This document shows, in pieces, positions 54,118-64,000 of a DNA stretch of 64,000 nt. The stretch comes from Paenibacillus sp. BIHB 4019 (GTDB lineage: Bacteria; Bacillota; Bacilli; Paenibacillales; Paenibacillaceae). The position numbers and the translations under genes were made by a program. The notes below the pieces were generated by a model. It was not told the DNA's origin and made no database searches. It was given only the letters and a program-made list of their open reading frames with translations. Numbering within the stretch: position 1 is the first letter of the stretch; every line of letters starts with the position of its first letter. The stretch lies in the NCBI RefSeq assembly GCF_002741035.1, contig NZ_CP016808.1, forward strand, positions 6,372,501-6,436,500, given 5' to 3'.

Positions 54118-55353
54118 CTACTGATAGACCAGTTCTACCTTGCTTATTAAATCAAGGGCGGCCTGCTTCGCCTCCTGCGGCGTATCGGCCACGGTAATAA
54201 CATAACCGAGCCTGTCATCCGAGCTTTTGGCTACGGAAATCTGGTCCCCTTGCTGCACCGATATATGCGAACGAACGATAGCGTCTCCCGTCTGCAAATG
54301 CTCAAGCCCTCCTACAGAGGCAACGGTGCCGTCCTTCTCGGCCAGCAAATAAGCGATCGCCGCCGCCCGGCTGCGGCTGGCATGAACATTGACAGGTTCC
54401 GCTAAATAATAATGCACGGTCGCTTCAAAAAAATCTACACCGAGCGCTTGAACGAGCAAATCGGAGGAAATATTGTCTCCACCAGGCCGGCCGTTCACCT
54501 CAATGATGCGCGGGCCTCGCTCCGAAAGCTTCACCTCGACATGGCTAGGGCCATCCGTAATGCCTATTGCCCGCAGCGCGCTTACCGCCGTTTCGATAAT
54601 TTCCGCTTGCTTATCCGTATGCACGGAGGTAGGCAGCGTATGCGCCACCTCGACGAAATAAGGCAGTGGCGACGTTATTTTTTCAGTAACGACCGCGAAT
54701 GCAGGCTCGCTATTTTCAAGGAAAATTTCCACGCTGAACTCCTGGCCATCCAAATATTCCTCAACCAAATATTCCTCTCTCACTTTGAAATCCATATACG
54801 TTACTTTAAAATCCGAGATGATCGCCATCGCGTCCTTCAGCTCATCCTGCCCGGAAATAAAATAAACGTTTTGGCTGCTTGCACAATTGGTCGGCTTAAG
54901 TACAATAGGATAGCCAATTTCACGAGCCGCAGCCTCCGCTTCCTCATAGGTTCTCACCTTCCTGTATTTTGCGCTGGGCACCCCAAACGCCTCATAGGCT
55001 TCGCGGGCCAAATCTTTATTTCTTGATTTTAACGCCGCTTCATACGGCACGCTTCTAAGCCCTAGCCGCTCTGCCACCTTTGCCGTCAAATGCGAGGCAT
55101 AGTCCGTCGCCGGAATTAAAGCATCCAGCTTGCCGAAATACGCAGAGCTGCGAATCGCCTCGTAAACGGACTCCTCATCTCTTATATCCGCGACAATTAA
55201 ATCATGGTAAATGCCCTCATAGCCATACGTGCGCGGGTTATCCACAGAGGATACTATCGAGATTACGGTGCAGCCCTGCTGAAAGGCCGCTCTTGCAAAG
55301 CTCACCCCATAAAAGCTCGGCTCAACAAAAGCGACGATTTTGGGTTTGGTCAT
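54118..55353 (-). CDS. ATP-grasp amino acid ligase (BacD-like)
   Basis: 411 residues, ATG 55353 with AAAGGAG upstream. The N-terminal Rossmann-like domain (IVAFVEPSFYGVSFARAAFQ) is followed by ATP-grasp subdomains: GYPIVLKPTNCASSQNVYFI, EEYLVEEYLDGQEFSVEIFL, GPSHVEVKLSERGPRIIEVN (Mg/ATP residues) and RPGGDNISSDLLVQALGVDF. This subclass includes L-amino acid ligases that join amino acids into dipeptides. Last enzyme of the lysX-like operon, 25 bp after the exporter. I infer that it condenses the carrier-made amino acid with another amino acid. Confidence 0.88.
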   Translation of the reverse strand: MTKPKIVAFVEPSFYGVSFARAAFQQGCTVISIVSSVDNPRTYGYEGIYHDLIVADIRDEESVYEAIRSSAYFGKLDALIPATDYASHLTAKVAERLGLRSVPYEAALKSRNKDLAREAYEAFGVPSAKYRKVRTYEEAEAAAREIGYPIVLKPTNCASSQNVYFISGQDELKDAMAIISDFKVTYMDFKVREEYLVEEYLDGQEFSVEIFLENSEPAFAVVTEKITSPLPYFVEVAHTLPTSVHTDKQAEIIETAVSALRAIGITDGPSHVEVKLSERGPRIIEVNGRPGGDNISSDLLVQALGVDFFEATVHYYLAEPVNVHASRSRAAAIAYLLAEKDGTVASVGGLEHLQTGDAIVRSHISVQQGDQISVAKSSDDRLGYVITVADTPQEAKQAALDLISKVELVYQ

Positions 55354-55378
55354 AGCGATTCTCCTTTAGTTATTGAAT

Positions 55379-56599
55379 TTATACTTCCAGCGATTTTTTC
55401 GCCTTCACGCCGCTGCTTGCTACTAGCATCCTGTGCAAAATCAGCCCAACGAGCATCAGACCGCCCATGCAGAGAAAGCCGACAGCTGCGGAATAACGGT
55501 CGATGAGCAAGCCCAGCGCCGAAGCGGATACCGTCTGCAGCAGCAGCGAAATGGCCATCCATACCGACATTGCCCGGCCCATGTAGGACTTCGATACCGT
55601 CTCCATCAGCGTCGTCGTCATGACGATGCGCAGCGAGGAGTTGCTGAGGCCGATGAGGACGCTGCCCAAGTAAAGGACAAACGCAAATGTGTTGAATGCG
55701 ACGGCGATTAATACACCGAACGCGACGGCGAAAAATATAGCAATCGTCGTATTTTTCGATAATTTCGCAGCCAGCGGAGCAGCAATGAAACCAGATAGCA
55801 GACCGCCAATGCCATAAAACATATCAGCCAGGCCAAACACGACGGAGTCGCCTTTTACGGCATCGCTCACATAACCCGGCAGCACGACATTATAGATCAT
55901 CGTGGATACTAACGGAATAATAGCGATGACGCCGAGGAAAAAAATAAACGGGCGCTCAGCCAAATAGCTGAGTCCATTTTTAAAGCTGGAAACAAACGAT
56001 TCTCCTTTATTTTCAACCGCAATCGCTTCATAGCTGACCCGGAACAGCAGCAGGCTGCTGACGATAAACACAAGGGCATTAATGAGCAGAATCACTTCGA
56101 AGCCCGAATATTTATACAGCACCCCCGATGCTGCGCCAGCCATAAACATGCCGACCTGCAGGCTGATTTCGATTAAGGAATTGCCCTTAATCAAGTCCTT
56201 CTCAGGGAGCAGCTCCTGCACCAGGCTGCGGGAGGCCGACATATAGATGGTCCAGCCCATCCCATTTACGATCGTAAATAAATACAAATATTCAATGCGA
56301 AATCCCGTCCATAAAAACAAGCCCATAATAGCCAGCACAGCTGCCGCCCGGATAAAATACGTCCACTGAATAATCGCCTTGCGATTAAACTTGTCGGTCA
56401 AGCTGCCCACAAACGGCGAAATCAGAAAACCGGCGATCACATTCAGAGACAGCATAAACCCGATCGCGCTGATGGAGCCCGTCTTGTCCATTAGAAACCA
56501 GTTGGCGCCAATGGTGCTCATTCCTACTCCAAAGCCGGAAATAATGTCCGAGAGAAAAAAATAACGGAATTTCGCTGGCCGCAGCACGCTAAAAATCAT
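55379..56599 (-). CDS. MFS transporter, probable product exporter
   Basis: 406 residues, about 12 membrane segments (e.g. YFFLSDIISGFGVGMSTIGA, INLL-type helices, and VGFLCMGGLMLVGLILHRML). The loop 2-3 signature SPFVGSLTDKFNRKAIIQWT is MFS-like. ATG 56599 is preferred over an ATG 6 nt earlier because GGAGG lies 8 nt upstream. It overlaps the upstream transketolase stop by 11 bp. Closest in look to drug exporters; position in a biosynthetic operon suggests export of the product or self-protection. Confidence 0.88.
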   Translation of the reverse strand: MIFSVLRPAKFRYFFLSDIISGFGVGMSTIGANWFLMDKTGSISAIGFMLSLNVIAGFLISPFVGSLTDKFNRKAIIQWTYFIRAAAVLAIMGLFLWTGFRIEYLYLFTIVNGMGWTIYMSASRSLVQELLPEKDLIKGNSLIEISLQVGMFMAGAASGVLYKYSGFEVILLINALVFIVSSLLLFRVSYEAIAVENKGESFVSSFKNGLSYLAERPFIFFLGVIAIIPLVSTMIYNVVLPGYVSDAVKGDSVVFGLADMFYGIGGLLSGFIAAPLAAKLSKNTTIAIFFAVAFGVLIAVAFNTFAFVLYLGSVLIGLSNSSLRIVMTTTLMETVSKSYMGRAMSVWMAISLLLQTVSASALGLLIDRYSAAVGFLCMGGLMLVGLILHRMLVASSGVKAKKSLEV

Positions 56600-57524
56600 T
56601 GTCATCTCCTCCGAGCTCTGCGATCTGCCTTGTCAGCGCTTCATAGCCAAAGCCTAAATAATGCAGCACATCAGCATGGCTGCCGCCATATATCGGCCAT
56701 TGCTCGCCGCAATCATGCGAATAGACCTGGCTCTCCGGCAGCAGCAGGGCGAGACTTGATGCTGTACCGCCAGCGGCCCGGTGCTCCTCTACGACGAGGA
56801 AGGTTCCCGCTGCCGCTTGCAGCTCCGCTTTATAGCCTTTCAAGCTGTCCCGGTCGACATAGCAAAGATGCGCATGATTGACCCGCTCATTTTCCTGGTA
56901 AATCCGGCTGCATATTTCAGTAGCCTGCTCGCCAATCGACACCAGGCACAGCGGGGCATCGCTGCGGACAGCGCCTTCGAACAACAGCTCGCGGCAGCTG
57001 CTTGACTCATCACGGGCGAGGCTGTCGAACTTGTCATTGCGCGACAGGCGGATGTAATAGGGCTCCTTCGATGCTGCGGCCTCCTGTACAACCCGCCGCG
57101 TCTCTGCTTCCCCATGAGGACAGGCGATACGGATGTTCTGGAACGTCTGGATAACCGCAATGTCCTCCAGACAATGATGCGTTGTCCCGAACCAGCCGCC
57201 CGATACACCGCCGTAAGCGGCGACGATTTTAATATTTTCACCCATATACCCTAGCGCCAGCTTCACGCCCTCTGCTGCCCGCAGAGCAGCAAATGACGCA
57301 AAGGTCGAGAAAAACGGCACGAAGCCTGCCTTCGACAGCCCCGCAGCAATATCTACACTGGCGAGCTCTGCTATGCCTAAATTGAAGAAACGATCTGGAT
57401 AGCTTTGCTGAAAAGGATGCTCCTTCCCTCCCAAGTCCGCCTCCAAGCAAATAATGTTCCCATTATCCGCTGCCAGCTTCGTTAATTCATCTTTGTAGGC
57501 CTCTCTTGCTGCCAAGCTGCTCAT
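56589..57524 (-). CDS. Transketolase C-terminal subunit
   Basis: 311 residues from ATG 57524 (MSSLAAREAYKDELTKLAAD), which overlaps the stop of the N-terminal subunit (ATGA) and has GAGGGG upstream. Pyrimidine-binding domain with the catalytic Glu region FFNLGIAELASVDIAAGLSK, then FSTFASFAALRAAEGVKLAL, VAAYGGVSGGWFGTTHHCLE and a C-terminal swapped domain. It pairs with the next subunit to form an active ThDP enzyme. In the context of a carrier-protein cluster it probably adds a two-carbon ketol unit to the carrier-bound semialdehyde; that is inference from known DADH pathways. Confidence 0.9.
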   Translation of the reverse strand: MSSLAAREAYKDELTKLAADNGNIICLEADLGGKEHPFQQSYPDRFFNLGIAELASVDIAAGLSKAGFVPFFSTFASFAALRAAEGVKLALGYMGENIKIVAAYGGVSGGWFGTTHHCLEDIAVIQTFQNIRIACPHGEAETRRVVQEAAASKEPYYIRLSRNDKFDSLARDESSSCRELLFEGAVRSDAPLCLVSIGEQATEICSRIYQENERVNHAHLCYVDRDSLKGYKAELQAAAGTFLVVEEHRAAGGTASSLALLLPESQVYSHDCGEQWPIYGGSHADVLHYLGFGYEALTRQIAELGGDDNDF

Positions 57525-58327
57525 TGCAAGCCCCTCTTCCATTTCAGCGCTATTTTCTCGGAAATTTTAGCATAATGGGCATGCGGATTGCCTTCAATGG
57601 CAGCTACGCCCTTGCCCTTCACCGTGTGGGCCAAAATCGCCAGCGGCTTCTCCCCGTCCGGCTCCAGCGCTGCAATAATTTGCCCGAGATCATGGCCGTC
57701 GATCTCCTTCACCTGAAAGCCAAACGCTTCAAAGCGCTCCCGCAAATTCGGCAGCGGCGATATGTCGGCTAGCAGCCCATCGTTCTGACCTCCGTTGCAA
57801 TCGACGGCATAAATAAAATTCGTAATGCCCTTCGCCTGTACGAGCTGTGCCGTTTCCCAGCACAGCCCTTCCTGAAGCTCGCCATCGCCGCCAATGGCAA
57901 TGCCGAGCCCACTCGTACGCAGCAGCTTTTGTCCGAGCGCCCAGCCAGCTGCATAGGCTACCCCATGTCCGAGACTGCCCGTCGCAAATGGGATGCCAGG
58001 CAGCTTTGGGTTGGGATGCCCAGTGAATAGCGAATCTGCCCCGCCGTAGGAGGCTGCTGGATCATCCGATAAAATTCCGTACTGGTAGAGCGCCGCATAT
58101 AACGCCGCTGCGGAATGACCTTTGCTCAGCACGATGGACGTATTCGCGTCCTGATGATATTTTGCATAGGCGCCAATGAGCAAATCGATGACCGACAAGC
58201 TGCCGCCGATATGGCAGCCTGTCTCGCGAGCCGCCATATCGATAATAGAGCTGCGCGCAGCCTGCGCCTTCGCTAGCAATTGTTCAAACTCAGCTGAATG
58301 ACTTGCCGACTGTACCAGCGTACCCAT
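57521..58327 (-). CDS. Transketolase N-terminal subunit
   Basis: 268 residues from ATG 58327 (MGTLVQSASHSAEFEQLLAK), with GGAGGG 5 nt upstream. The ThDP-binding region is GGDGELQEGLCWETAQLVQA followed by IYAVDCNGGQNDG (pyrophosphate/Mg2+ motif GDG...N). Other marks are VLSKGHSAAALYAALYQYGI and TGSLGHGVAYAAGWALGQKL. It overlaps the LysZ-LysK gene by 38 bp and is coupled to the C-terminal subunit by 4 bp. A split transketolase is not needed for glycolysis-linked metabolism in this operon, which supports a special role. Confidence 0.92.
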   Translation of the reverse strand: MGTLVQSASHSAEFEQLLAKAQAARSSIIDMAARETGCHIGGSLSVIDLLIGAYAKYHQDANTSIVLSKGHSAAALYAALYQYGILSDDPAASYGGADSLFTGHPNPKLPGIPFATGSLGHGVAYAAGWALGQKLLRTSGLGIAIGGDGELQEGLCWETAQLVQAKGITNFIYAVDCNGGQNDGLLADISPLPNLRERFEAFGFQVKEIDGHDLGQIIAALEPDGEKPLAILAHTVKGKGVAAIEGNPHAHYAKISEKIALKWKRGLQ

Positions 58328-60185
58328 AAGAACCCTCCTCCGATCGCAGGCGATACCATTCCTCAATGGCTCCCTGCAAAATCGCTCGCGCGCCATGCAC
58401 CTCGCTGAGCTGCAAATACTCCTCATTCGTATGATCGAGGCTCGCATCACCTGGGCCGTAAGCGACCATTGGCACACCCTCCCAAGTCGTAGCCAGCGTA
58501 TTCATATCGCTTGTTCCGCGCTTTTTAATATAATGAATCGCTTTCCCCTTGCTCGCAAAGCTGCGTACAAAGGCTTTCACCAATGGGCTGTTTCGCGGAT
58601 TTGCGAAGCCCGGCGTAGCCCGCAGCACCGTTACAGAAACCCCATCGCCATATTCAAGCTGGATCTGCTTCGCATACTCCTTGCCCGCATCCGGGGAAAT
58701 CCGAAAATTTAAAATGCCTACAGAACTAAGTATTCCATTATGATTACTATGTTTTATGTCAATAAGAGATGACAGATGGTTCGGGTCAACACCCCCTACC
58801 TGCTGCCGGATATCCGCCACAATCGTATAAAGCTGATCCAGCACGCTAATGCTGTCCTTGCCGGCAGAATGCTCCTGCGGCTTGCTTATGGCGATACTCA
58901 GCTTATATAGTCCATAGTAGCCTAAGGTCAAGCTGTCCTCCCCGCTCGGCTCGCCGATAATGACCGCATCCGCCCGGTAATGATCCCTGACATAGAAGGC
59001 CCCTTTGGACGAGGATACTTCCTCCTCCACCGCTCCTATGACGAGCAGCGAGCCATCCTCAGGCACCTTGGCGTCATACAGCATTTGAATGAAGCTGAGC
59101 AGGCTGCCCTTGGCATCCACCGTTCCCCGGCCAGCAATTCGCTCCTCATCGCATGCAACAGGCCAATTATAGGGCACAGTATCCAGATGGCCGAGCAGCA
59201 GCAGTTGATTAGGCCCGTTGCCTTTGCGGAACACCACATTGCCCGCCTCATCGACAAAGCCGGCTACACCTGGCAGTTGAACCGCATTCAGCAAATAGCC
59301 CGCAAGCTCGGACTCGTCGCCGGACTCCGACGGAATTCGAATTGCTTTTCTAAGCAAATCCGTTCCGCTGGCATCCCGCTGCATATTCCAAAACCATGTT
59401 TTGCCTGTGTCCGGCCGATTCAGCGAATGAGGCCCCGTTATGCTTACGTCGCAAATGCCTTTGCTGATGGCATGATTCGCCGCCCGTACCTTTTGCTTCA
59501 TCCGTCCTTTGATGGAATGAATTTCATCACCCAAGTAAACGTCGGATATCGTAGAAGCTGGTTCATCCACATTTTCCAAAAGCCCCGCCGTGCTTGTCAC
59601 AAAGCGCAAATGCTCGGCTGCGAGCTCGGTTGCAAGATGAGCGGCCAGCATGTCCGCATCGATATTAATATATTCGCTTAGCTCACGGTCATATATAGGC
59701 GGTGTCAAGCATACGACGTCAAATACCTGCAGGGCGCCCTGTAGAAATTCGACGTTGCAGCCTGTAAAAGAGCCGAACAGGGAATCGCGAACGATAACGG
59801 TTTTGCCATCCTTGACCGCTTTAACCGGCTTCGATTTTTGTCCAAATACAACCTCGTTGTCGCCGCCAATTTGGGCGAATGCTTTGAGCTGGTAGTTTTT
59901 TAATTGCTCATGGACCTTCGCTAAAATAAACTCCTGATACGCCGCCCGAATGAGCGGCATCTCCGATGGAGAGCAGTACCGCGCCTCGTCTCCATTCGCT
60001 AAAGCGAGAACCGGAATGCTCCGGTTCAGCTGCTCGTATTTTTGCCGGATGCCCTCAGCTCCACCCGCTACGAGCAGCACCTTTTTCCCTTTTTGCACCA
60101 GATCATTGAGCTCGGCAAACACTTCGGGATGGTGCATAATGGTGCTGCTCCCGAGCTTAATGACGTACAAGCTCTGGCTTGACAT
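58290..60185 (-). CDS. Fused LysZ-type amino acid kinase and LysK-type M20 peptidase
   Basis: 631 residues from ATG 60185, overlapping the upstream stop (TAATG). Residues ~1-265 are an N-acetylglutamate-kinase/LysZ domain: LYVIKLGSSTIMHHPEVFAE, KVLLVAGGAEGIRQKYEQLN, AQIGGDNEVVFGQKSKPVKA, VVCLTPPIYDRELSEYINID. Residues ~270-625 are an M20 peptidase with all metal ligands: LLGHLDTVPYNWP, IAGRGTVDAKGSLLSF, GAVEEEVSSSKG, IIGEPSGEDSL and YGPGDASLDHTNEEYL. LysZ phosphorylates the carrier-bound side chain and LysK releases the finished amino acid. They are usually separate; here first and last carrier steps are in one chain. Confidence 0.92.
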   Translation of the reverse strand: MSSQSLYVIKLGSSTIMHHPEVFAELNDLVQKGKKVLLVAGGAEGIRQKYEQLNRSIPVLALANGDEARYCSPSEMPLIRAAYQEFILAKVHEQLKNYQLKAFAQIGGDNEVVFGQKSKPVKAVKDGKTVIVRDSLFGSFTGCNVEFLQGALQVFDVVCLTPPIYDRELSEYINIDADMLAAHLATELAAEHLRFVTSTAGLLENVDEPASTISDVYLGDEIHSIKGRMKQKVRAANHAISKGICDVSITGPHSLNRPDTGKTWFWNMQRDASGTDLLRKAIRIPSESGDESELAGYLLNAVQLPGVAGFVDEAGNVVFRKGNGPNQLLLLGHLDTVPYNWPVACDEERIAGRGTVDAKGSLLSFIQMLYDAKVPEDGSLLVIGAVEEEVSSSKGAFYVRDHYRADAVIIGEPSGEDSLTLGYYGLYKLSIAISKPQEHSAGKDSISVLDQLYTIVADIRQQVGGVDPNHLSSLIDIKHSNHNGILSSVGILNFRISPDAGKEYAKQIQLEYGDGVSVTVLRATPGFANPRNSPLVKAFVRSFASKGKAIHYIKKRGTSDMNTLATTWEGVPMVAYGPGDASLDHTNEEYLQLSEVHGARAILQGAIEEWYRLRSEEGSYGYAGTVGKSFS

Positions 60186-61246
60186 TAAGGCCACGCCCCC
60201 TCTAGCTCAAATTGTAAGCCTGCTTCCTCCCCAATGCCGCTGTACAGGTTCGCAGCCTGAATCGCCTGTCCTGCCGCTCCTTTAATCAAGTTGTCGATCG
60301 AGGCGATCGAGACGCAATTGCGACCTTCTACATAAGCGCCGACTTCGGCGTAATTCGTCCCGGCTGTCGTCTTGATCATCGGATACGAATAGGAGCCGTT
60401 TTTGGAATTGAAATAATGGACAAACGGCTTTGCCGCGTAGGCGCCATAAAATGCTTTTTTCACATCGATTTCGCTCGCATGCTCTTTCAGCAAGGAGTAG
60501 GAGGTGACGAGAATGCCTCGCGGCAAATCCAGGCTGTGTACGGAAAATTGCAGCTCCACGGAACGTTCCAGATGCTCCTGAAGCGCAAATTCAATTTCTG
60601 GCCTGTGGCGATGCCCATGCACTTTATAAGGACGGAAATTATGGGCGCGCTCCGCGTGATGCTCCGTGCTCGCCTTGCCGCCGCCGCTGGAGCCCGTCTT
60701 GGCGTCCGAGATGACGCGCGGCTCAATCAGATTAGCTGCCAGCAGCGGAAACAGCGTATAAATCGTTGCGACCGCCATGCAGCCAGGCAAATTTATGACC
60801 TTCGCCTCCAAATTAATATCGCTAAACTCCGGAATAAAATAATGGCTGCCCCCTCGCGCCGGATGGCTGAGGCTCTCTGGATAGTGCTGCCGCAGCAGCT
60901 CCTGATCGTTTAGGCGATAATCGCCGCTGACATTAATCACATAATCGGCATGCTCGGCAATATGGTCGATATGACGGGGCAATACCCCGGTCGGCAGGCA
61001 GGAAAATATGAAATCATAATGTCCGGCAAGCGAAGCCAGCTTCTGAAACTTCCCGCCATCCGCCCGTTTCTGGCGCGCCGACGAAACAAAAAATTTATCC
61101 AGCGGCAGCCCCGCCTTCGATTCCGACGATACAAAATCAACTTTGAAATAAGGATGCCGCTTTAGCAGCCGGTAAAGCTCCCCGCCTGTAAAACCATTGC
61201 CGCCCAAAATGGCGACGCGCTTCACGCTGCTCCCAGTTACACTCAT
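60185..61246 (-). CDS. N-acyl-gamma-glutamyl-phosphate reductase, ArgC/LysY type
   Basis: 353 residues, NAD(P)-dependent reductase. VKRVAILGGNGFTGGELYRL is the Rossmann P-loop; catalytic Cys in VINLPGCMAVATIYTLFPLL (~152); active His region YKVHGHRHRPEIEFALQEHL (~207); and VHSLDLPRGILVTSYSLL. It reduces an acyl phosphate to a semialdehyde, here on LysW-like-carrier-bound glutamate (inferred). ATG 61246 overlaps the aminotransferase stop (ATGA). A GTG seven codons downstream is a possible alternative start. It lies outside any arginine operon. Confidence 0.92.
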   Translation of the reverse strand: MSVTGSSVKRVAILGGNGFTGGELYRLLKRHPYFKVDFVSSESKAGLPLDKFFVSSARQKRADGGKFQKLASLAGHYDFIFSCLPTGVLPRHIDHIAEHADYVINVSGDYRLNDQELLRQHYPESLSHPARGGSHYFIPEFSDINLEAKVINLPGCMAVATIYTLFPLLAANLIEPRVISDAKTGSSGGGKASTEHHAERAHNFRPYKVHGHRHRPEIEFALQEHLERSVELQFSVHSLDLPRGILVTSYSLLKEHASEIDVKKAFYGAYAAKPFVHYFNSKNGSYSYPMIKTTAGTNYAEVGAYVEGRNCVSIASIDNLIKGAAGQAIQAANLYSGIGEEAGLQFELEGAWP

Positions 61247-62565
61247 CCGAGTCTCGCATCCCTCTCATATGATTTTTTGGCCGCCGTATTCTGAAGCACG
61301 AGTTCGCGAATAATCGCCGGGTTCGCATCAATTTTCTGAAACGCCAGCGCATATGCGGCTATGCGCTCATATTCAATGGGCGAGCGCAGCTCCCGGCAAA
61401 TGGTCAGCGTTGAGCGCAGCATGCTCAGCGTCGCGGGGAAACGGTCGATATGGTAACCAAAGTCTTTGCGCTCTGACAGCGTAAAGGGATACCCTCTGCC
61501 GAACCCTTTGCGATTTTGAAATGGCAGATGGCCTGGAATCGGCACGTTTTGCCATTCCCGTGCAAACACCCCTTCGCTCGATGCCAGCTCTTGAATGGCC
61601 TCTTTCACCTGATAATCCGGCAAATCTCCCAGTCCCGCCGCTTCCAGGTCCAACTTTATTCGATACATATTGTAGCTATGCTTATGCCCCTCAGGCACAT
61701 GAGGCCCTTTAAACAGCTTCGTTTGCGCTAAAATATTCGTTAAATAGCTCGCATTTCTCGCCCGGATCGCATCATAATACGGCAATCGGTCCAGCTGGCT
61801 AATGCCAAACGCCGCAGCGATCCAAGACATGCGGTAATCAATGCCCGTCTCCTGCAAAAAGCTCAACGCCCTCTCATAATTCTCCCGCTCCTTGAAGAAG
61901 GCAATGCCCCCCTCTCCGCCTACAGGGAAGTTTTTGTCCGCCATTAAGCTCTGCCCCGCTCCATCGCCGATAGATCCGCACAGCTGGCCGCCAATGGAGG
62001 CCGAATGTGCATGGGAGGCATCCTCCACCAGCCGCAGCTTATGCTTGTCAGCGAGTGCCCTGAGCTGCGCCAAATCAGCTGGCAATCCATGGACATGGAC
62101 AGGCATAATGACCTTCGTCCTCGCCGTGATCGCCTGTTCCACCAGCGCAGGATTCAAGTTATAGGTCAGTGGATCAATATCCACAAATACAGGGATCGCT
62201 TTTGCCGCTACAACGGCCTGGGCAGTCGCAATAAACGTAAACGCCGGAACGATGACCTCATCCCCGGGCTGTACGCCAACACCAACGAGCGCCAGATGCA
62301 GGCTTGACGTCCCGCTTGCCGTAGCAATCGCATAATTCGCCCCAACATAGCTGCGGTATTTTTCCGTAAACTCATGGATCACTTCTTCCGGGCTTTGCTG
62401 AATGGACACTAGCATTTGAACGATATCTTCTTTCGTAATGGAAGGAAAGGTCGTCTTCCGGCTATCCTCTGGAATGACGGCTGGGCCACCATAATAAGCA
62501 AGCTGCTCGTTAATCCACGCTTCCGATGGCAAGCTCAGCGGCTTGCGGATAAAATCAGTTTTCAT
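61243..62565 (-). CDS. DegT/DnrJ/EryC1-family aminotransferase
   Basis: 440 residues, PLP-dependent fold type I. Features are YAIATASGTSSLHLALVGVG, GDEVIVPAFTFIATAQAVVA, HKLRLVEDASHAHSASIGGQ (Asp for PLP) and the catalytic Lys in LMADKNFPVGGEGGIAFF. ATG 62565 has AAGGAGG upstream and overlaps the previous stop by 11 bp. DegT enzymes usually aminate ketosugars. A transketolase product on the carrier would be a hydroxyketone with a sugar-like end, a suitable substrate. The usual LysJ/ArgD class III aminotransferase of lysine or ornithine synthesis is absent. Confidence 0.92.
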   Translation of the reverse strand: MKTDFIRKPLSLPSEAWINEQLAYYGGPAVIPEDSRKTTFPSITKEDIVQMLVSIQQSPEEVIHEFTEKYRSYVGANYAIATASGTSSLHLALVGVGVQPGDEVIVPAFTFIATAQAVVAAKAIPVFVDIDPLTYNLNPALVEQAITARTKVIMPVHVHGLPADLAQLRALADKHKLRLVEDASHAHSASIGGQLCGSIGDGAGQSLMADKNFPVGGEGGIAFFKERENYERALSFLQETGIDYRMSWIAAAFGISQLDRLPYYDAIRARNASYLTNILAQTKLFKGPHVPEGHKHSYNMYRIKLDLEAAGLGDLPDYQVKEAIQELASSEGVFAREWQNVPIPGHLPFQNRKGFGRGYPFTLSERKDFGYHIDRFPATLSMLRSTLTICRELRSPIEYERIAAYALAFQKIDANPAIIRELVLQNTAAKKSYERDARLG

Positions 62566-63238
62566 AGCCGCTATTCCTCCTTAGAAGCGATAATTTGACG
62601 CATGCCGCGACAAGCGGACTGAGCCTGTAGTTAAACTGTGCGCCTGGCTGAATGTCCGGCTCCGCCTCCTCCTGCGTCCACATCGTCTTCAAATCGAAGG
62701 CGCCGAATATTTTTAGACGCTCCGCCTTGGTCCATATGCTTTCGTCATTTACCGAGATTGAGGCGCAGGGGCCGAAGCCAAGCTCCGTGAAATCCAGCAC
62801 CAGCACGGGTGATTTGTGCAGCTTAGGCTGTAGCTCTTGCTCAATGCGGGGCAAGCTGTCCCACGTCACCGTCACCTTATCGAAGCCTTGCTGCACATCA
62901 GAATCCGTGACCAGCCCTATCCCGAGCCAGCTCGCAAAACGCTGATCCTGCTCGCTTGCTTCCTCCAGGCGCGTCAGCGAGCCATGGACGATATCCTGCC
63001 CCCAAAGCGCGGCATGCACCGCGCCCGTATAGCTGTTGAACAAGGAAACATATTTGCTTTGTGTCAGCTTGCCGATGCTTTTTTCTAGCCCCTTGAGCTC
63101 ACTCTCATTTTTTTCAATACTCATGATGACGCCCGAATTCAGCACACGGGATAAAACAAAGGAAAGAGAAAAATATTGCTCCTTTTTGATTACTGGTGTC
63201 ACCTTCTCTGGAGCTGTAATAATTGTCGTATGGGCCAT
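62555..63238 (-). CDS. Short DegT-like protein without the PLP-lysine motif (uncharacterised)
   Basis: 227 residues from ATG 63238 (MAHTTIITAPEKVTPVIKKE), with AAAGGAG upstream. The N-terminal part resembles the start of DegT aminotransferases (KLTQSKYVSLFNSYTGAVHA at ~55-75), the middle VLVLDFTELGFGPCASI may equal the Asp segment, and FNYRLSPLVAACVKLSLLRR matches the DegT NYR motif. The Lys-x-x-GEGG loop is not present and the protein is about half size. It may be an inactive subunit or partner of the full aminotransferase next to it. The resemblance is by eye and should be tested by profile search. Confidence 0.7.
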   Translation of the reverse strand: MAHTTIITAPEKVTPVIKKEQYFSLSFVLSRVLNSGVIMSIEKNESELKGLEKSIGKLTQSKYVSLFNSYTGAVHAALWGQDIVHGSLTRLEEASEQDQRFASWLGIGLVTDSDVQQGFDKVTVTWDSLPRIEQELQPKLHKSPVLVLDFTELGFGPCASISVNDESIWTKAERLKIFGAFDLKTMWTQEEAEPDIQPGAQFNYRLSPLVAACVKLSLLRRNSGYEN

Positions 63239-63283
63239 CGCCGATTCTCCTTTATCCGCAGCTTGTTTTCGTGGTTCATTGTT

Positions 63284-63325
63284 CTTGTTTCATGGATTTT
63301 GTTTCATGGTCCTTGTTTCATGGTG
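63284..63325 (-). repeat. Three 14-bp tandem repeats upstream of the short DegT-like gene
   Basis: Units CTTGTTTCATGGAT, TTTGTTTCATGGTC and CTTGTTTCATGGTG in a 130-bp gap between the lysX-like stop and the next start. No LysW-sized ORF with an acidic EDWGE end is found in this gap. Confidence 0.75.
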
Positions 63326-63367
63326 CATGGTTCGCCGTTTAACTGGAACTCAATCATCTAAATTGCG

Positions 63368-64000
63368 TTAGGCGTTAACCTCCTGCCTCGTCCTGGAGGC
63401 CAATTTCCCCTGCAAATAAAGCGCGATATGAGCGGCTACATCGACGCCATGTATTTTCCAAGACTTCGAAAACTCCGGGTTTTGATTAACCTCGCATACG
63501 AGATAGCGTTTATTTTGATAGTCATAAAATAAATCCAGACCGTAGATGCCTTCGCCGAGCACCTCAGTCAGCTTGCTGCAAATCGATTCTATTTCCTTAT
63601 TGACAGCAATTGGTTCAACCTCAGCTCCCAAATGCGTATTCGTCTTCCAATTGTCGACCGACACCCGGCGAAACGCTACGATTGGCTTGCGGCCGACAAT
63701 GACAACGCGAATATCATAATCCCCCTTGTCCACGTATTCCTGTACGAGTACTGGAAAGGACTGCTGGGTCGGATCAAGCGATTCCCGTGCCGCAATCCAG
63801 CCATCTAGGCATTCCTTGCCGACAATGCGGGCAATGCCCCTTCCCCAGGAGGAGCTGGGCGGCTTGATGACAAATATGTTGCCAAAATCCTCGAACGATT
63901 CGAGGATCTTGTCTGCTGTAAAGGCGACTTTGAAGCGGGGCTGTGGAATGTTATGCTTTTGGAACACGATTGCTTGATGAATTTTATTTGTGCAAATGTT
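63368..64000 (-). CDS. lysX: LysX/ArgX-type carrier-protein-glutamate (or aminoadipate) ligase, 5' end beyond the window
   Basis: RimK-like ATP-grasp ligase that couples an amino acid to the C-terminal Glu of the carrier protein LysW. The frame is open to base 64000, so the N-terminal ~60-70 residues are missing; the internal start at 63967 is not the real one. Features are NIFVIKPPSSSWGRGIARIV (ATP), LVQEYVDKGDYDIRVVIVGR, NWKTNTHLGAEVEPIAVN (substrate and TNT-like motif), EGIYGLDLFYD and YLVCEVNQNPEFSKSWKIHG (Mg2+ ligands). The C-terminus is SRTRQEVNA. First visible gene of the operon. Confidence 0.9.
   Translation of the reverse strand, partial: NICTNKIHQAIVFQKHNIPQPRFKVAFTADKILESFEDFGNIFVIKPPSSSWGRGIARIVGKECLDGWIAARESLDPTQQSFPVLVQEYVDKGDYDIRVVIVGRKPIVAFRRVSVDNWKTNTHLGAEVEPIAVNKEIESICSKLTEVLGEGIYGLDLFYDYQNKRYLVCEVNQNPEFSKSWKIHGVDVAAHIALYLQGKLASRTRQEVNA

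Follow-up and report, generated by a model that had tools for sequence, protein, structure and literature searches.

What does a gene cluster built around a LysW-type carrier protein make in a Paenibacillus? The question is raised by the right-hand end of a 64,000-nucleotide stretch of Paenibacillus sp. BIHB 4019 (the window; C1:6372501-6436500, where C1 is the 7.25-Mb single-contig genome), in which nine co-directional minus-strand genes are packed tightly at 54118-64258 with reading frames open throughout. A sequence-only reading of the window had placed these genes correctly, and the lysW gene that it expected to the right of position 64000 is present just past the window edge (Table 1). 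Its proposal of a LysW-carrier secondary-metabolite cluster akin to the type making vazabitide and 2,6-diamino-5,7-dihydroxyheptanoic acid (DADH) is supported by the enzyme content together with LysW. The best overall reading, with a probability of roughly 0.65, is that a DADH-containing dipeptide is made and exported, and ten or eleven genes probably form one operon for this LysW-carried secondary metabolite.

The DADH route set out in passages of PMC9570651 starts from glutamate, which is phosphorylated and reduced, extended by two carbons through transketolase and then transaminated, and passages of PMC9303977 describe amino-group carrier proteins (AmCPs) as carriers for lysine, ornithine and DADH, DADH being carried for vazabitide A (by Vzb22) and s56-p1. 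For every step between LysW-bound glutamate and DADH the cassette encodes a candidate, as it does for loading (LysX) and release (LysK), and this enzyme content links it to the DADH route. In the proposed scheme LysX would couple the amino group of glutamate to the glutamate that ends LysW, the LysZ half of a LysZ-LysK fusion would phosphorylate the free side-chain carboxylate of the bound glutamate, and the ArgC/LysY-type reductase would convert the LysW-bound acyl phosphate to the semialdehyde. A split transketolase would append a two-carbon hydroxy-keto unit, a hetero-oligomer of DegT and short DegT would transaminate the ketone to give LysW-bound DADH, and the LysK half would release the product. 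The L-amino acid ligase would then attach a second amino acid to DADH, and the resulting dipeptide would leave the cell through the major facilitator superfamily (MFS) protein, with a tailoring or protective part left for the flavin-type reductase. Since the ligase and exporter accompany the cassette, a secreted DADH dipeptide is suggested; a DADH-type core is judged quite likely, and the balance tips only slightly toward a dipeptide as the product.

PF21344 matches one gene in the whole genome, the lysW beside lysX, at 52 bits against a cut-off of 27; the protein falls under the cut-offs of both NCBIfam LysW models and aligns to the solved chain 3VPB_E with E=3e-8. It has the Cys pairs and C-terminal Glu of a LysW-type carrier. 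The WGE C terminus is found on LysW in every relative where LysW was found, within the tail EETWGE in 28/31 Bacillota rows and EEDWGE in the Actinomycetota rows read. LysX matches TIGR02144 (2.9e-62, 210 bits, under the cut-off of 276) and, over cut-off, the Pfam family LysX_preATP_grasp, and its closest solved chains are the LysX/ArgX structures 3VPD, 1UC8 and 3VPB. According to passages of PMC10433800 the SWGR motif of LysX-type ligases reads the LysW tail and takes the form GSWGR in described ArgX. The window LysX has SSWGR, and SWGR is present in 30/31 Bacillota and 35/40 Actinomycetota rows, the remainder giving no match.

The LysX signature N[QA]NPEF[AS][KRHQN]S, with positions set by the analyst from structure-chain alignments and from passages of PMC10433800, occurs in 29/31 Bacillota rows (plasmids included), 33/40 Actinomycetota, 2/3 Enterobacterales and 1/2 Betaproteobacteria rows. 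The window LysX reads EFSKS at this place and differs from both EFKGF (ArgX 3VPB) and EFKNS (LysX 1UC8). Because the signature is common to most rows and unlike that of 3VPB and 1UC8, one shared LysX substrate across cassette copies is likely. We infer that this substrate is glutamate, of which the signature is not proof; a Glu-specific haloarchaeal ArgX carries yet another signature (passages of PMC10433800), so the unusual one alone does not exclude glutamate.

The two DegT proteins are closest, among solved structures, to the two chains co-crystallised in PDB 8Y96, 8Y97 and 8Y98. The pyridoxal phosphate (PLP) lysine of the full-length DegT lies in MADKNFPVGGEGG, identifying it from its sequence as the catalytic subunit, and the short chain lacks this lysine and is probably a non-catalytic partner subunit of the aminotransferase; the combination of a catalytic and a short chain is that of the 8Y96-type pair. 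A hetero-oligomer is predicted from close homology to the crystallised complex, and this pair is the candidate for transamination of the C6 ketone. The sequence-only reading had listed a DegT-like short protein and a DegT aminotransferase; both genes stand, with the short one corrected to a probable partner subunit by 8Y96 homology. HMMER gapped the DegT segment holding the Asp differently from the motif-based pairing with 8GYH. Pfam and NCBIfam back the names of eight of the nine genes; the short DegT-like protein draws no match from either, yet has 306 relatives at E<=0.01. Decay of the short DegT to a pseudogene is ruled out by its cross-phylum conservation with invariant motifs and by its homology to the 8Y96 chain; the hetero-oligomer is not a new discovery, since the 8Y96 complex is already solved.

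The remaining core enzymes are assigned as follows. The ArgC/LysY protein matches TIGR01850 and its closest solved chains are 2OZP and 5EIO/5EIN. In the LysZ-LysK fusion AA_kinase spans residues 10-253 and Peptidase_M20 residues 332-611. The fusion passes the cut-off of TIGR01902, scores below cut-off as [LysW]-lysine hydrolase (266 bits) and as [LysW]-aminoadipate kinase (112 bits), is closest to the solved chains 4Q7A, 5XOY and 3U6U, and shows by eye the usual M20 motifs in its LysK half (GHLDTVP, GRGTVDAKG, EEE, GEP, DH). The best solved chain for the transketolase N-terminal half is 6YAK, the 'N-terminal component of the split chain transketolase', and the transketolase genes sit beside LysW-pathway enzymes, as expected of DADH-type carrier metabolism. 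The reading frame of this half opens at 58477; translation probably begins at 58327, inside lysZK, a start picked by comparison with relatives and used here. The putative L-amino acid ligase combines ATP-grasp with the LAL C-terminal domain and is closest to 3VOT (the BL00235 ligase) and to BacD (3WO1, 3WNZ, 3VMM), and the exporter gives EntS/Mef-like NCBIfam rows, all under cut-off.

The gene set is more than a chance assembly, because its nine-part order is kept across phyla. A scan of genome contigs with exact peptide patterns of the short-DegT alignment, which misses divergent copies, gave 72 loci; tblastn with nine queries (LysW, LysX, short DegT, DegT, ArgC, LysZ, LysK, TktN, TktC) located all nine parts, collinear and co-directional, in 67/72, from Bacillota, Actinomycetota and Proteobacteria. 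The five incomplete loci comprise four at contig ends (L074, L080, L101, L104) and L099 (Enterobacter sp. EA-1), an apparently broken copy with no LysW match and fragmented open reading frames (ORFs). Plasmid copies are found in Staphylococcus epidermidis, Pseudalkalibacillus and Streptomyces (three plasmid records with a match), the S. epidermidis plasmid (L105, NZ_CP043848.1) carrying the full cassette with a LysR regulator, an NAD(P)H reductase, an MFS protein and a ligase. A related short DegT, P0107, has 129 member sequences and is labelled Staphylococcus aureus by its source. Presence is patchy, with LysW over cut-off in 30/394 genomes of the family and short DegT in 4/398 genomes sampled from the class; all 30 of these LysW genes adjoin this LysX and short DegT. 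Ten PF21344 matches under cut-off (27-33 of 46 positions; seven in ORFs of at least 626 amino acids) were dropped. A quick-method tree of DegT, ArgC and LysX (the 70 rows having all three proteins) separates Bacillota, Enterobacterales and their plasmids from Actinomycetota and Betaproteobacteria with full support, in the presence of long branches (L105 with L061/L063) and a skewed letter make-up; the alignments excluded L077, L099, L101 and L104.

The sequence-only reading knew of no characterised example in Bacillales. No paper describing the cluster there was found by title and abstract, in a search thin on subscription journals; one Bacillaceae genome paper lists a LAP region with 4% similarity to vazabitide (PMC12272613). 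The set is nevertheless not isolated in Bacillales: 28 Bacillota loci of the scan and two Bacillales plasmids carry it.

The genes that follow the transketolase are shared as well. The flank survey was confined to Bacillota and Enterobacterales, ORF calls being noisy in high-GC loci and Actinomycetota left out. One MFS protein (at least 39% identity) and one ligase (at least 45%) occur in 28/28 Bacillota and 3/3 Enterobacterales loci, and an FMN (flavin mononucleotide) reductase of one cluster in 24/29 Bacillota (28 and the window) and 2/3 Enterobacterales loci. P. algorifonticola and the window carry a flavodoxin-fold reductase of another kind where the others have the FMN reductase, and no reductase is seen there in L036, L056 and L060; in the window this reductase is possibly the last gene of the operon. 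No nonribosomal peptide synthetase (NRPS) was found among 32 Bacillota and Enterobacterales loci (window included), which extend about 10 kb to either side and have only two called ORFs of at least 800 amino acids, neither NRPS-like by eye. Among the 41 other loci, 35 have at best a distant ATP-grasp match (23-32% identity; LysX itself in at least three) and six have no ATP-grasp ligase match at E 1e-5. In L062, the one locus scanned for this, the ATP-grasp protein contains LAL_C2, and its gene precedes those of an unnamed protein and a further MFS; the unnamed protein (460 residues, L062:17932-19314) has no Pfam match, and its cluster occurs in 19 loci, none of them Bacillota. An amino acid permease stands instead in one Streptomyces locus and one Streptomyces plasmid, the plasmid also having a short-chain dehydrogenase.

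Table 1. Genes of the LysW cluster in window coordinates; L002 is the 20-kb stretch across the window edge, and the window coordinate equals the L002 position + 52000
Feature	Position	Strand	Evidence
lysW carrier, 57 aa	64271-64444, past window edge (L002:12271-12444)	-	PF21344 match; C-terminal EETWGE
lysX-type ATP-grasp ligase, 296 aa	63368-64258, crosses window edge at 64000 (L002:11368-12258)	-	TIGR02144, LysX_preATP_grasp
Short DegT-like protein, 227 aa	62555-63238	-	homology to short chain of 8Y96 complex
Full-length DegT/DnrJ/EryC1 aminotransferase, 440 aa	61243-62565	-	PF01041; 609 bits to 8Y96 chain A, full length
ArgC/LysY-type reductase, 353 aa	60185-61246	-	TIGR01850, 268 bits
LysZ-LysK fusion, 634 aa	58290-60194	-	AA_kinase and Peptidase_M20 domains
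Transketolase N-terminal half (probable start 58327)	57521-58327	-	Transketolase_N
Transketolase C-terminal half (pyrimidine domain)	56589-57542	-	Transket_pyr
MFS exporter, 408 aa	55379-56605	-	MFS_1 and MFS_3 over cut-off
L-amino acid ligase-type ATP-grasp enzyme, 411 aa	54118-55353	-	ATP-grasp_4 and LAL_C2 over cut-off
Flavodoxin-fold reductase, 183 aa	53518-54069	-	Flavodoxin_2 126 bits, FMN_red 32 bits

Neighboring genes are separated by 12 bp (lysW-lysX), 129 bp (lysX-short DegT), 25 bp (MFS-ligase) and 48 bp (ligase-reductase), and overlap by 11 bp (short DegT/DegT), 4 bp (DegT/argC) and 10 bp (argC/lysZK). A 14-bp tandem repeat of 3.6 copies lies at 63275-63324, inside the lysX/short-DegT gap.

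Several observations weigh against the DADH dipeptide. The LysX signature belongs neither to the known Glu type (GF) nor to the aminoadipate type (NT/NS), and it is missing, through no match or another reading, in 2/31 Bacillota, 7/40 Actinomycetota, 1/3 Enterobacterales and 1/2 Betaproteobacteria rows. LysX, LysZ and LysK all score under the curated cut-offs of the LysW-pathway equivalog models, and the cluster ArgC exceeds that of the arginine-pathway model TIGR01850 (268 versus 234). The putative ligase might join something other than DADH, and the window reductase belongs to another cluster than the FMN reductase of most relatives. The likeness to the vazabitide and azinomycin pathways was judged by enzyme content and published descriptions.

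The alternative that survives best, although distinctly less probable, keeps the same DADH cassette and changes its end product, in that DADH would undergo cyclisation, giving a pipecolic-type or azabicyclic unit, or would serve an enzyme whose gene lies elsewhere. Such chemistry has precedent in azinomycin, where DADH leads to aziridine and azabicyclic units (passages of PMC9570651). Sulfotransferase-rich encapsulin clusters can likewise carry AmCP genes, and a further cluster from this encapsulin family leads to chloromyxamides with 6-chloromethyl-5-methoxypipecolic acid (both from passages of PMC8346489). The flavodoxin-fold reductase, left without a role in the dipeptide scheme, could likewise belong to such a route. 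Set against this, ligase, exporter and reductase close the gene set common to the Bacillota loci, and the cluster flanks resemble housekeeping genes (judged by eye, without a family scan).

A more doubtful alternative takes the product to be not an antibiotic but a metal chelator or signal that is secreted and taken up again, with the cluster and an oligopeptide-type ATP-binding cassette (ABC) importer forming an export-import pair in many Paenibacillus. The solute-binding protein of a peptide ABC importer is found upstream in 19/29 Bacillota loci, in 16 of these 19 directly before the cassette; the one binding protein scanned belongs to SBP_bac_5 and has similarity to Opp4A, NikA and, more weakly, CntA, all below cut-off, and the FMN reductase at the other end of the cassette would also suit a chelator or signal. 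The importer is lacking in 10/29 Bacillota loci, the window among them, and it travels with sulfur-scavenging-type genes to which it may instead belong (a monooxygenase in 11/29, GNAT in 11/29 and M20 in 8/29 loci). At L041:7-8686, and in similar places in other Paenibacillus loci, an NtaA/DmoA monooxygenase, GNAT, M20 and the peptide ABC importer stand upstream of lysW. No Fur, Zur or MntR-like box with fewer than four mismatches was found upstream of lysW, which also speaks against a chelator or signal. By raw mismatch counts, no Fur, Zur, PerR or MntR-like box within 250 bases upstream of lysW comes closer than four mismatches in 30/32 loci; PerR-like sites have three in L035 and two in L039. 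Metal regulation was set aside on the lack of close Fur/Zur/MntR boxes and the restriction of PerR-like sites to these two loci.

Riboswitches reach gathering score in none of the seven loci scanned. A palindrome, TTATAAnGG(n7)CCnTTATAAT, lies about 60 bp upstream of lysW and overlaps the -10 box. With at most two mismatches it is present in 13/29 Bacillota loci (e.g. L037, L040, L042, L043, L045, L048, L051, L055, L058) and absent upstream in the window strain. Across nine whole genomes, palindromes with zero or one mismatch (in four genomes) are all beside lysW, and those with two mismatches also occur elsewhere, a reversed-pattern control giving a few as well; the element may be a cluster-specific operator. 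A LysR-type regulator gene stands on the opposite strand upstream of the cassette in L059, L061, L063, L105 and L106 (Bacillaceae, Enterobacterales and plasmids; L059, L061 and L063 named by eye).

The genome does not need the cluster for lysine or arginine. Canonical argC, argJ and argB lie together at C1:2671588-2674668 and lysA at C1:5068190; the canonical argC and argB score 464 and 244 bits, their cassette counterparts 268 and 91. The preference of the sequence-only reading for a secondary metabolite over lysine or arginine is supported by these separate genes. Among the 30 over-cut-off LysW genes in the 394 family genomes none of the arginine or lysine kind was seen, and passages of PMC7281374 and PMC11651109 concern LysW in primary metabolism. 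A LysW route to arginine or lysine, to which the homology of LysX, ArgC, LysZ, LysK and LysW and the passing of the arginine-pathway cut-off by the cassette ArgC would point, is extremely improbable and is ruled out as a primary role by the canonical genes elsewhere and by the confinement of the family's LysW to this cassette, with the transketolase, DegT pair, ligase and exporter within the operon and the patchy distribution also opposing it.

The DADH dipeptide thus remains the preferred product. A wider and tentative proposal is that this NRPS-free pathway of Bacillota, Enterobacterales and a staphylococcal plasmid yields a new class of DADH dipeptides, re-imported in part of Paenibacillus and perhaps acting as chelator or signal beside or instead of antibiotic. 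Since copies are found on the S. epidermidis plasmid and in Enterobacterales, one may ask how the molecule serves such bacteria. In a compact Bacillota operon with assignable core steps and a crystallised homologous subunit pair, the product should be directly discoverable.

Among known systems, the heterooligomeric aminotransferase of Serratia sp. ATCC 39006 (8Y96-8Y98) has the two chains closest to the cluster DegT and short DegT. It is known as a structure (8Y96 and 8Y98 released 2024-12-18) with titles that give no substrate, and a literature search found no paper for 8Y96-8Y98. The 8Y96 chains match by eye the proteins of Prodigiosinella confusarubida in L063, presumably the same organism, and this locus carries the whole cluster including MFS and ligase. 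The lysine/arginine pathway of Thermus and Sulfolobus shares LysW, LysX, LysZ, LysY and LysK homologues with the cluster, which differs in having no LysJ/ArgD-type aminotransferase, in its transketolase and DegT pair, in the fused LysZ-LysK and in another LysX signature. Bacilysin BacD and other L-amino acid ligases likewise place an ATP-grasp ligase beside an MFS exporter, but the cluster ligase scores 93 against the NCBIfam BacD cut-off of 850 and the building block is different. In azinomycin, passages of PMC9570651 assign AziC2-C7 as kinase, N-acetyl-glutamyl-phosphate reductase, transketolase (AziC5/C6) and aminotransferase (AziC1 or AziC7) leading to acetylated DADH, a route that differs in that an N-acetyl group is described, an AmCP is mentioned as possible and the product goes on to an aziridine. 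In the literature searched, partly through excerpts, experimental carrier-protein secondary metabolism concerns Streptomyces products, with gene-content reports elsewhere. The vazabitide A pathway of Streptomyces likewise uses a LysW-type carrier (the AmCP Vzb22) for DADH in a secondary metabolite (passages of PMC9303977, citing Hasebe 2016); vazabitide A is called there a non-ribosomal peptide, whereas the Paenibacillus cluster has instead an L-amino acid ligase, an MFS exporter and a reductase.

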